Shown here in pieces: positions 18,550 through 42,995 of a DNA stretch of 64,000 nt (its first letter is position 1; each line of letters starts with the position of its first letter). A model generated the notes under the pieces. The model did not search any database. It was not told the origin of the DNA and saw only the letters and a program-made list of their open reading frames with translations. Source of the DNA: an uncultured Pelagibacteraceae bacterium. Lineage in GTDB: Bacteria > Pseudomonadota > Alphaproteobacteria > Pelagibacterales > Pelagibacteraceae. The position numbers were made by a program, and so were the translations under genes. Location: contig CACOXX010000003.1 of the NCBI GenBank assembly GCA_902631265.1, forward strand, positions 1-64,000, given 5' to 3'.

Positions 18550-18577
18550 TTTACAAGTTATAAATTTAAAGTATAAG
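18550..18577 (+). promoter_or_regulatory. Candidate sigma-70 promoter for 5S rRNA
   Basis: TTTACA (18550-18555) and TATAAG (18572-18577) are separated by 16 bases. This would place transcription start about 7 bases downstream, at or next to the mature 5' end of the 5S rRNA. It fits an independently transcribed 5S gene, but such matches arise easily in AT-rich DNA. Confidence 0.4.
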
Positions 18578-18581
18578 TCTT

Positions 18582-18701
18582 ATGCCTGGTGATTATTGCG
18601 AAGGTGTAATACCCGATCCCATTCCGAACTCGGTAGTCAAGCCCTTCTGCGCCGATGGTACTTTGTCTTAAGACATGGAAGAGTAGGACGTTGCCAGGCT
18701 T
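18582..18701 (+). rRNA. rrf: 5S ribosomal RNA
   Basis: About 120 nt. GCCTGG at the 5' end (18584-18589) pairs with CCAGGC at the 3' end (18694-18699), forming helix I. Internal sequence includes the highly conserved CCCGATCCCATTCCGAACTCGG segment (split across 18612-18634) and the following TAGTCAAGC loop B/helix III region, then GATGGTACT and AGAGTAGGACG of helices IV-V. No 16S, 23S or spacer tRNA genes lie upstream in the window, so this is a stand-alone 5S gene. rpmJ begins only 7-8 bases downstream. Ends are estimated from the pairing and may be off by 1-3 bases. Confidence 0.95.
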
Positions 18702-18708
18702 ATAAATT

Positions 18709-18834
18709 ATGAAAATAAAAAGCTCCCTTAAATCATTAAAAAAAAGAGATCTTAACTCAAAGTTAGTTAAGAGAAGAGGAAGAGTGTACATAATTAATAA
18801 AAAAAACCCAAAATTTAAAGCTAGACAGAAGTAA
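18709..18834 (+). CDS. rpmJ: 50S ribosomal protein L36
   Basis: 41-residue Lys/Arg-rich protein: [14 protein letters not shown] opening, a central [21 protein letters not shown] end. It is the variant of L36 with 41 residues common in alphaproteobacteria and lacks the zinc-binding cysteines. Translation was done by hand from the ATG at 18709 to TAA at 18832-18834. It sits immediately after the 5S rRNA with no Shine-Dalgarno sequence in the 8-base gap, so it is probably on the same primary transcript. Confidence 0.92.
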
Positions 18835-18837
18835 TTT

Positions 18838-18948
18838 ATGGATAATGAAAACCATAAAAAAACATGGGATAATTTTACGAAGTTCGTTCTTTGGGGGACA
18901 ATTTCAGTCATTGTTATTTTAACACTTCTAGCTATTTTCTTACTATAA
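18838..18948 (+). CDS. Small membrane protein, aa3-type cytochrome c oxidase subunit IV family
   Basis: 36-residue protein read from ATG 18838 to TAA 18946-18948: a short hydrophilic N terminus (MDNENHKKTWDNFTKF) followed by one membrane helix (residues about 17-36). Size, layout and position directly upstream of pntA match the bacterial aa3-type cytochrome c oxidase subunit IV family, which is often found beside transhydrogenase genes in alphaproteobacteria. It starts 3 bases after rpmJ and ends 5 bases before pntAA. Sequence alone gives modest certainty because the protein is so short. Confidence 0.7.
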   Translation: MDNENHKKTWDNFTKFVLWGTISVIVILTLLAIFLL

Positions 18949-37987: not shown

Positions 37988-38947
37988 ATGAAATTTTTAG
38001 AGTATATAAATAAAAGTATATTTGTTTTAATAATATTTATTTTTTCAATTATTTCTTTTGTCAAGGCAGAAGAAACAGAAACCTTAAAAGTATTAAAAAC
38101 ATTACAAAAAGATTTAAAAACTTTAGAAAAAGCTGTTTATTCACAGTCTTCAAATATAATTACAACTAGTAAAACAAAATTAAGTTCAAATGATGAAGAT
38201 GTGCTTACAAGACATTTATTAAAATTGTCTGAGATAGAAAAACAATTTCAAGATTTGACAAATAAATTTGAAGAAATAAATTTTAAAATTGATAAACTAT
38301 CAAGTAGATTATCAAAAGTTCAAGCAGATAATCAATTAAGGTTCCAAAATTTAGAGGGCGAGGACATTGACAAAAAAGTTACATCTAAGAAAAAAGTTTT
38401 ACCTGGCTCTTCTCAACCACAAGATCTTGGCGCAGTATCTTACAAGTCATCAGAAACAAATGAATTAACACAACAAACCCAATCAATAGATACAACTGGT
38501 ACAGTCATAACCGAAAAATTTGTGTCAGAAGAAAAAATCTTACCTAACGATAAACCCGATAAACAATACGAGTTTGCTACTAGTTTTTTAAAGCAAGGAG
38601 ACTATACGACAGCAGAAAGAGCGCTTAGAGAATTTGTGATGACAAATCCTGAACATAAAATGGCAGGTAGCGCACAATATTGGTACGCAGAAACATTTAG
38701 AATTAGACAACTTTACACAGATGCTGCTTCTGCTTACTTAGAGGGTTATCAAAAATATCCTAAAAGTGAAAAAGCAGCTATAAATTTACTTAAGCTTGGA
38801 GTATCATTAGTGCAAATTGGAGAAAAAGATCAAGGGTGTTTAATGATTACAGGAGTTAAAAAAGAATATCCTGATGCAAAACAATCAGTTCTTCAAAAAG
38901 CAAAATATGAAGAAAAAAAGTTCGAGTGTAAAAAGAAAAAATCTTAA
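37988..38947 (+). CDS. cpoB: Tol-Pal associated coiled-coil/TPR protein CpoB (YbgF)
   Basis: 319 residues. A signal peptide (residues 1-27, ending VKA), an N-terminal coiled coil (about 28-125) and a C-terminal TPR region (about 190-310) with YEFATSFLKQGDYTTAERALREFV, AQYWYAETFRIRQLYTDAASAYLEGYQKYPKS and LLKLGVSLVQIGEKDQGC. It coordinates outer-membrane constriction with peptidoglycan synthesis. The 3' end overlaps the tilS start region. Confidence 0.9.
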   Translation: MKFLEYINKSIFVLIIFIFSIISFVKAEETETLKVLKTLQKDLKTLEKAVYSQSSNIITTSKTKLSSNDEDVLTRHLLKLSEIEKQFQDLTNKFEEINFKIDKLSSRLSKVQADNQLRFQNLEGEDIDKKVTSKKKVLPGSSQPQDLGAVSYKSSETNELTQQTQSIDTTGTVITEKFVSEEKILPNDKPDKQYEFATSFLKQGDYTTAERALREFVMTNPEHKMAGSAQYWYAETFRIRQLYTDAASAYLEGYQKYPKSEKAAINLLKLGVSLVQIGEKDQGCLMITGVKKEYPDAKQSVLQKAKYEEKKFECKKKKS

Positions 38948-39617
38948 AAATTCAGTTTTTAGTCCTCAAATAAAAGATAAAAGAATAAAAAAAATCTATC
39001 AAAGATTTGAATTTTTAATTAAACAGAAAGAATTCAAAGGGTACTTAGTTGCAGTATCTGGTGGTGCAGATAGTCTTGCTTTAGCATATCTTTCAAAATG
39101 TTATCAAATTAAAAATAAAGATAATAACTTTCACTATGTTCATGTAGATCACAAACTAAGAGACAAATCCTCGAAAGAGGCTGGGACTTTAAAAAAAATC
39201 TTAAGAAAATTTAGAATTGAGTGCAAGATAATTACTTGGAAAAAAAAGACAAATACTAAAAAAACTCAATCAGAGTCTAGAGATTACAGATTTAAGGTAT
39301 TTGATGGTTTTTGCAAAACAAAAAAAATTAATACATTATTATTAGGCCACCATTTTGATGATTTTCAAGAAAACTTCTTCATCAGATTATTAAGGGGCTC
39401 TGGTCTTAAGGGACTAGTATCATTTTATAATTATAGAAATTTGCAAAGAAATAATATTAATATTGTTAGACCATTACTTGATTTTTCAAAAGAAGATTTA
39501 TTGTACGTGACTAAAAATATTTTTAACTTCTATATAGATGATCCATCAAATAGAAGCTTAGAGTATTTGAGATCACGTGTAAGGTTTATGATTAACAATC
39601 TTAAAAAAATGGCCTAG
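38907..39617 (+). CDS. tilS: tRNA(Ile)-lysidine synthase, N-terminal part (frame-disrupted)
   Basis: Modifies C34 of tRNA-Ile(CAU) to lysidine so that it reads AUA. The PP-loop motif AVSGGADSLALAYLS and ILLGHHFDDFQENFFIRLLRGSGLKG are diagnostic. ATG at 38907 gives a sensible start overlapping cpoB by 41 bases; an earlier ATG exists at 38874. The frame ends prematurely at a TAG 39615-39617, just after the DPSNRSLEYLRSRVRFM segment. The remainder of the protein continues in another frame from 39605; an extra A in the A7 run at 39603-39609 would join them. Confidence 0.85.
   Translation: MKKKSSSVKRKNLKNSVFSPQIKDKRIKKIYQRFEFLIKQKEFKGYLVAVSGGADSLALAYLSKCYQIKNKDNNFHYVHVDHKLRDKSSKEAGTLKKILRKFRIECKIITWKKKTNTKKTQSESRDYRFKVFDGFCKTKKINTLLLGHHFDDFQENFFIRLLRGSGLKGLVSFYNYRNLQRNNINIVRPLLDFSKEDLLYVTKNIFNFYIDDPSNRSLEYLRSRVRFMINNLKKMA
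39603..39609 (+). other. A7 homopolymer at the tilS frame break
   Basis: Sequence CTT AAA AAA ATG GCC TAG ends frame 1. With eight A it would read CTT AAA AAA AAT GGC CTA GAT, i.e. Leu-Lys-Lys-Asn-Gly-Leu-Asp, joining exactly to the downstream frame. It may be an assembly error, a real mutation, or a site of transcriptional or ribosomal slippage. Confidence 0.8.
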
Positions 39618-39970
39618 ATCAAAAAAAGTTTAAAATGACTTTTGAAAATTTAATATCCTCGAATAACTCAATTGAATTTTTCGTACAAAAAAATATCAGT
39701 GAGAATTCTTATATCAGTCCGTCAAAAAATAATAATAATAAAGCACTCTTATCTTTAAAGTTTTTTAGTAGTACTGATGAAATAATTTTAAGGTCCTTTA
39801 CAAAAATTTTACAAGATATAAGTGGTAGATTTTTCCCCGCTAGAGGCAAGGGTGTCTCAAGGATTATTAATCAAATTAAACAAAAATCCTTGACCAAAAC
39901 AACTATAGGAGGATGTGTTATTGAAAAAATAGAGAATTCAGTAGTTATTTCTAAGGAAAACACAAAATAA
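39605..39970 (+). CDS. tilS: tRNA(Ile)-lysidine synthase, C-terminal part (frame-disrupted)
   Basis: 121 codons read from 39605 (KNGLDQKKFKMTFENL...) to TAA 39968-39970. The end of this frame, RSFTKILQDISGRFFPARGKGVSRI and TLGGC-like TTIGGCVIEKIENSVVISKE, matches the C-terminal region of alphaproteobacterial TilS. If translated alone it could only start at ATG 39635, giving 111 residues without the PP-loop. The joined protein would be about 355 residues, a usual length. It is followed by ftsH. Confidence 0.75.
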   Translation, partial: KNGLDQKKFKMTFENLISSNNSIEFFVQKNISENSYISPSKNNNNKALLSLKFFSSTDEIILRSFTKILQDISGRFFPARGKGVSRIINQIKQKSLTKTTIGGCVIEKIENSVVISKENTK

Positions 39971-41945: not shown

Positions 41946-42995
41946 ATGTTAAAATATTACACTAGAGCGTGTAATTTCTATTATGGTGACCATTCAACTC
42001 TGATGGTCAATAAAAAACTTGCTCTCCCACTTAATGGAAATAATAAAATTTCTTTTGATACAATAGAACTTATAACAAGAAAAAAGAAAAAAAAAATCCA
42101 CATTTCAAAATTAAATTTTTTAAGTAAAATTTTAAAGAAAAAAGTAAAATTAGATATAAAAAATATAACAAAAAAAAAAAACTTTTCTAAACTAAAGTTT
42201 AAGTCTTTACCTTTAATAATGGGAGTTGTTAATTTAACTCCTGATAGTTTTTCAGATGGTGGAAAATATAATAATCATAAAGATGCTTTAAAAAGAATAA
42301 AACATTTTATTAAAAAAGGATCATCAATTATTGACATAGGGGGAGAGTCCACAAGACCAGGATCAAATGATGTAAATGAAAAAATTGAGTGGAAAAGGAT
42401 TAAGGAAGTATTAAAAAAAACAAAAAAACTAAAAAACGTAATATCTATTGATACTCGAAAAAGTGCCATAATGGAAAAAAGTTTAAAATATGGTGCTCAT
42501 ATCATTAATGATGTCTCCGGACTCGATTACGATCCTAATACACTAAAAATCCTAAGAAATAAAAAAACTCCCTTTATAATTCATCACATGCAAGGTAACC
42601 CAAAAACAATGCAAATTAAACCTTCGTATAAAAACGTTTTGCTAGATATTTATGACTTCTTTCAAAATAAAATTTTAGAACTAGAGGCCAATGGTATAAA
42701 TCATAAGAACATTATTTTGGATCCAGGAATTGGTTTTGGAAAAAGATTGAAACATAATATTACCTTATTAAGAAACATTTCTATTTTTCATTCACTTGGA
42801 TTTCCTATAATGTTAGGCATTTCTAGAAAAAGATTCATTAAAGATATTTCTGGGATAAACGATAGTAAGGAAAGACTAGGGGGAACTATATCATCTAGTT
42901 TGTGTGCTATGATGCAGGGCATTCAGATTTTAAGAGTTCACGATGTAAATGAAGTTAATCAAAGTATTAAAGTTTTTAAATCACTAAAATTTTAA
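41946..42995 (+). CDS. folP: Dihydropteroate synthase with N-terminal extension
   Basis: Folate enzyme joining 4-aminobenzoate to the pterin pyrophosphate. The core (residues about 88-349) has IMGVVNLTPDSFSDGG, IIDIGGESTRPGS, SIDTRKSAIME, INDVSGLDYD, IIHHMQGNPKTMQ and ILDPGIGFGK. It is preceded by an 85-residue Lys-rich extension starting LKYYTRACNFYYGDHS that is not part of the usual family. I see no obvious internal ATG that would give a short form with a good ribosome-binding site, so the extension may be real. Confidence 0.92.
   Translation: MLKYYTRACNFYYGDHSTLMVNKKLALPLNGNNKISFDTIELITRKKKKKIHISKLNFLSKILKKKVKLDIKNITKKKNFSKLKFKSLPLIMGVVNLTPDSFSDGGKYNNHKDALKRIKHFIKKGSSIIDIGGESTRPGSNDVNEKIEWKRIKEVLKKTKKLKNVISIDTRKSAIMEKSLKYGAHIINDVSGLDYDPNTLKILRNKKTPFIIHHMQGNPKTMQIKPSYKNVLLDIYDFFQNKILELEANGINHKNIILDPGIGFGKRLKHNITLLRNISIFHSLGFPIMLGISRKRFIKDISGINDSKERLGGTISSSLCAMMQGIQILRVHDVNEVNQSIKVFKSLKF

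Follow-up and report, generated by a model that had tools for sequence, protein, structure and literature searches.

A one-base frame break in an A run of tilS from a Pelagibacter relative is probably a sequence error

TilS has been described as contacting tRNA through one or more C-terminal domains, and as an essential protein of both E. coli and B. subtilis, if maybe not of all species (PMC12514573). Its known short form, i.e., the type II enzyme of Aquifex aeolicus (PDB 2e21/1wy5; 317 residues), consists of a PP-loop domain, a linker helix and one C-terminal domain. The Vibrio fischeri ES114 genome, in its version 1.0, had tilS among its split essential genes, and the corrections table lists it as a fusion (PMC2330054). 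A shortened tilS is mentioned for Moranella (PMC3620526). For the endosymbionts Blochmannia and Buchnera, rescue of poly(A) frame breaks by slippage has been proposed (PMC3017870), and in E. coli and Buchnera transcripts insertions at A/T runs are reported to rise with run length (PMC5574713).

The window analyzed here, i.e., the whole stretch of 64,000 nucleotides, is from contig C3 of an 828-kb, 43-contig genome of a Pelagibacter (SAR11) relative, rated 72% complete. From the encoded proteins, the gene order around its tilS is presumably tolB, pal, ybgF-like, tilS, ftsH, folP, glmM. The gene is split between two frames (Table 1). The 5' part, of 236 aa from 38907 or 247 aa from an ATG at 38874, stops at TAG 39615-39617, while the 3' frame is open from 39605 and stops at TAA 39968-39970, as a first-pass annotation of the window had described. 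The two frames overlap in a run of seven A (A7) within CTTAAAAAAATGGCCTAG. As a result, the C-terminal domain is not joined in-frame in this assembly, whereas it is joined in all 20 near relatives. The start at 38907, which the same annotation had used, is favoured over 38874 because six of 65 orthologous frames (L051, L014, L172, L016, L030 and L175) open only from residue 7 of the longer version. A/T runs of at least seven account for 1,877 of the 61,664 bases (3.0%) in window ORFs of at least 100 codons, so that chance alone would rarely place a frame break in one.

Table 1. Parts of the split tilS and the site of the frame break, in window positions.
Feature	Position	Strand	Evidence
tilS 5' part: N-terminal PP-loop (catalytic) domain	38907..39617	+	PF01171, TIGR02432
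A7 run, frame break site	39603..39609	+	one extra base in 20/20 near relatives spanning the site
tilS 3' part, other frame: linker helix and C-terminal domain	39605..39970	+	open frame, orthology, relative's fold

The signature motif of TilS is SGGxDS. It is present as SGGADS in the window protein, and S62, G63, G64, D66 and S67 are invariant in 48 sequences of relatives. The 5' part matched PF01171 (ATP_bind_3) with an E-value of 1.2e-44 (152.7 bits, cut-off 27) and TIGR02432 (lysidine_TilS_N) with 1.1e-46 (159.2 bits, cut-off 93.6). No Pfam or NCBIfam model matched the tail; its TilS-like character, proposed from the letters alone, was nevertheless borne out by orthology and fold. A profile searched against solved structures matched Aquifex TilS through to position 306 of its 364. 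For the intact protein of a close relative (L062), the fold predicted with a 48-sequence alignment had a mean pLDDT of 85.6, and Aquifex TilS ranked first for this model both in Foldseek (E 8.9e-14) and in VIA-align (Z 25.8, rmsd 3.1, 305 residues), the latter aligning residues 35-363 of 365. Identity to the Aquifex enzyme is only 18-19%. Like that enzyme, the L062 relative has a PP-loop domain, a linker helix and one C-terminal domain, and the window gene is an ordinary type II TilS of this architecture. Unlike in Aquifex, however, the window frame is interrupted past the catalytic domain, before the linker helix is reached; in the L062 model the break follows helix 232-245 and precedes both the C-terminal domain and a long helix (250-278). 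On this model, a protein ending at the break would be without the tRNA-contacting part.

A search for relatives yielded 24 loci, 20 of which span the break with 85-99% protein identity; L081, which ends ahead of the break, and the distant L082, L084 and L085 were left out. All 20 near relatives have a single tilS frame of 363-365 codons that runs to TAA. Nineteen of them carry eight A in the same register (nine if the preceding codon ends in A), and L063, which has AAAAAAGA at the A7 position, likewise has one base more than the window. The closest copy at the site, that of L062 (isolate AG-917-O03), has the same letters with eight A instead of A7 and encodes a single frame of 365 aa, counted from the position of 38874; a single added A does, as anticipated, rejoin the halves. 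Neither a naturally separate gene for the C-terminal part nor the break itself, whose conservation would mark programmed frameshifting, was found in any of the 20. In the genus as a whole, 299 of 399 genomes, the window's own included, had a tilS match. Among the matches listed, the 14 with at least 85% identity that were not cut by a contig end had open frames of 373-374 aa, and a hand count over about 150 of the 299 gave 147 other genomes whose match was clear of contig ends, of which 145 had frames open for at least 346 aa and two (G440 and G333) had shorter ones. Since the near relatives spanning the site are all intact, the A7 state is, as far as the sequences of the genomes examined go, private to the window.

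The rest of the gene is in good order. Compared with L062, the tail had five base differences over 357 positions and one residue difference over 119; in the N part the corresponding figures were 16 over 729 and four over 243. Codons private to the window, counted against all 20 relatives (an earlier version of the count used the nine of equal length), comprised three synonymous and one non-synonymous in the N part and one of each in the tail. No stop was found in the tail and no further indel relative to L062. The tail is thus without apparent sign of decay, and these small numbers would fit an error and a very recent mutation alike.

With the break lying in a homopolymer, the relatives intact and the remainder of the gene undecayed, we infer that the missing base is probably an error of amplification, sequencing or assembly rather than a mutation in the sampled cell. 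The A run would have lost one base by slippage at some step from DNA amplification and library preparation to sequencing or assembly, and the living cell would have an intact tilS and normal AUA reading. A homopolymer error had been ranked first in the first-pass annotation, and that ranking is supported by the alignment of close relatives' tilS (20 of 20 intact, with one base more), by the undecayed gene and by the scattered occurrence of like breaks elsewhere; the other explanations it had offered, i.e., transcriptional slippage, -1 frameshifting and a shorter enzyme, gained no positive support. The V. fischeri ES114 case is alike in that an essential gene looks split in a single assembly yet is intact in close relatives; there, however, the sequence was corrected, whereas the window case rests on comparison with relatives.

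The indel background of the window was assessed against nine relatives over syntenic stretches, with private indels kept only where at least four relatives cover the place. Frame-changing indels relative to some relative occurred at 118 places, and a single one, that in tilS, was confined to the window; there the nine relatives were unanimous. Taken in turn, the nine relatives had 0 to 4 private frame-changing indels each (15 in total), six of which were flagged as lying in an ORF, all no more than 45 bases from the ORF end. We also looked for split genes, counting a split only if the best piece covered less than 90% of the query and dropping comparisons that touched the ends of the fetched stretches. 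When proteins from four relatives were searched against the window, each offering 57 to 59 comparable genes, tilS was the sole gene to come out split. In the reverse direction, searches of window proteins against the nine relatives gave 495 gene-genome comparisons, of which 7 showed a split, all of them involving the ORF at 18558-18911. This 117-aa ORF, antisense to the 5S rRNA and the pntA sRNA, is very probably spurious. The two RNA genes follow each other on the plus strand, the 5S rRNA at 18585-18699 and the pntA sRNA (RF01810) at 18834-18895. Window ORFs of at least 100 codons contain 244 A/T runs of at least seven, of which 204 are A in the ORF sense, yet no more than one private frame-changing indel was found in the window.

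The 24 relatives are for the most part uncultured Pelagibacteraceae. Isolate codes of the AG- form, which we take to denote single-cell genomes, are carried by 20 of them, and one of the 24 is Candidatus Pelagibacter ubique SCGC AAA795-M22. Judging from these codes, the window assembly is presumably also a single-cell one, from a pipeline such as that of GORG-Tropics, for which 3.0 indels per 100 kb have been reported (PMC11247762, PMC8443664). If that pipeline applies, one error in 64 kb would be unremarkable at this rate. Over the approximately 507 kb compared (0.88 of 64 kb, times nine), 3 indels per 100 kb would amount to about 15, of which only those inside genes and removing more than 10% would be visible. 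By this comparison, the genes of the nine relatives appear to carry fewer such errors than the benchmark implies. The rarity of gene-breaking indels in these assemblies therefore leaves room for a true mutation in tilS.

Whether such a mutation could last depends on the need for TilS, which the first-pass annotation had argued from the frequency of ATA codons. Both the frequency and the need held: ATA accounts for 671 of 20,648 codons in the window and for 35% of Ile codons (671/1,920). The 25 tRNA matches in the genome include tRNA-Ile(GAT) and three CAT tRNAs, but tRNA-Ile(TAT) was not found among these 25 matches in a genome that is 72% complete. One of the CAT tRNAs (contig C30) has, by our own reading, C4:G69 and C5:G68, which are reported tRNA-Ile2 elements (PMC12514573), making it a candidate tRNA-Ile2 and TilS substrate. 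A second tilS was not found in the genome, an absence that carries little weight at 72% completeness. A weak PP-loop match was seen on contig C10, inside a 541-aa frame. Because ATA is common and the tRNA set keeps a tRNA-Ile2 candidate, a lasting loss of TilS is unlikely.

Similar breaks occur in other genomes. For tilS they were found in G333 (at T9), G183 (A8) and G440 (no run longer than six), and for folP in G396 (A8), G381 (T8), G448 (A9) and G078 (A13). In another genus of the family, the tilS of L145 (G092:C35) is likewise divided between two frames, with an A10 next to the break and ahead of the PP-loop motif. With break positions taken from local alignment borders, an A/T run of 8 to 13 lies at the junction or next to it in seven of these eight breaks. 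Breaks thus affect no fewer than 3 of the 298 other genomes in which tilS was matched, G183 having emerged when 19 chosen genomes (with a short frame, two matches or a weak match) were searched again, and no fewer than 4 of the 318 in which folP was matched, where breaks were sought only in the 12 genomes showing two matches, of 319 with a match, own included. By these rough rates tilS does not appear to be special, and the location of each break at a different place is what would be expected of sporadic errors or mutations, unlike a conserved device.

How, then, do the other explanations compare with a sequence error, weighed by judgement rather than computation? A true recent mutation is conceivable but unlikely; in that case the sampled cell would have lost one A, its TilS would end once the catalytic domain is complete, and that cell, or a small lineage with it, would be impaired or dying. 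Homopolymers are mutable, A/T-run frame breaks exist in other genomes of the group, one of them (G078) assembled in one contig, and gene-breaking private indels are otherwise absent from the window and rare in the nine relatives, so that the assemblies look clean. A lethal change should, however, be rare among sampled cells, and TilS is reported to be essential in E. coli and B. subtilis, if perhaps not in all species (PMC12514573); moreover, AUA is a common codon in the window and tilS shows no further decay. Rescue of a true A7, with transcriptional slippage or -1 ribosomal slippage on AAA yielding some full-length TilS, is considerably harder to credit. The good shape of the tail is compatible with it, as are the reports of slippage in E. 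coli, Blochmannia and Buchnera mentioned above, and the poly(A) breaks of the two endosymbionts resemble that of the window tilS in combining a one-base indel in an A run, an otherwise intact gene and an AT-rich genome. The window break, however, is private to one assembly and involves only A7, whereas the endosymbiont frameshifts are described as shared across populations and species (PMC3017870). Shared by none of the 20 near relatives, the A7 state is without support for its persistence, and, with 97 A runs of greater length (8 to 13) in the ORF sense within the window, a run of seven is short. Its register, CTT-AAA-AAA-ATG, does not fit the canonical X-XXY-YYZ tandem-slip site. The RNA around and 3' of the run scarcely beats shuffled sequences in folding (120 nt from 39596: z -0.99, with 29 of 200 shuffles as good, in a test that covers folds other than pseudoknots).

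The broader proposition that free-living SAR11 carry true homopolymer breaks in essential genes, at a rate of at least about 1% per gene and rescued by slippage, with tilS and the folP of G078 as instances, is very unlikely; if true, SAR11 slippage rescue would parallel that of insect endosymbionts. Least credible of all is a genuinely shorter or two-piece TilS, i.e., the 236-aa part alone or together with a tail translated from ATG 39635. The catalytic domain is whole in the 236-aa part, but even the type II enzyme of Aquifex still has a C-terminal domain, to which the relative's alignment extends, and TilS is described as contacting tRNA by way of such domains (PMC12514573). Furthermore, a two-piece tilS occurs in none of the 20 near relatives, and G333, G440, G183 and G092 break at other places. 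The locus does not demonstrate new biology, conserved frameshifting, slippage and a natural two-piece enzyme all being unsupported, and the papers listed in a search on SAR11/Pelagibacter homopolymer frameshifts contain, to judge by titles and the starts of abstracts, nothing on the tilS question. With a sequence error as the probable cause, caution is warranted, since a single missing base could lead annotators to log a truncated TilS or to claim that AUA decoding is lost. The counts of like breaks provide a rough lower bound on homopolymer frame breaks in the assemblies of this AT-rich group, which helps in assessing pseudogenes that one genome alone displays.

As a candidate for true slippage, the window tilS is surpassed by the folP of G078, a one-contig Pelagibacter genome rated 100% complete. 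In this genome folP lies in two frames (L149; G078:C1, ~979110), broken at an A13 about 78 codons in. By comparison, folP is open for at least 330 aa in 22 of the 25 other genus members with a listed match (at most 70% identity); of the rest, the matches of G102 and G105 are confined to contig ends, and G100 falls outside the count. The folP-like protein of the window itself (41946-42995, 349 aa) has about 90 residues ahead of the putative DHPS start IMGVVNLTPDSF, which by our own reading we take to be the beginning of the DHPS domain. This extension of about 90 residues appears to be kept in the genus, since most listed matches align from residue 1 to 3.
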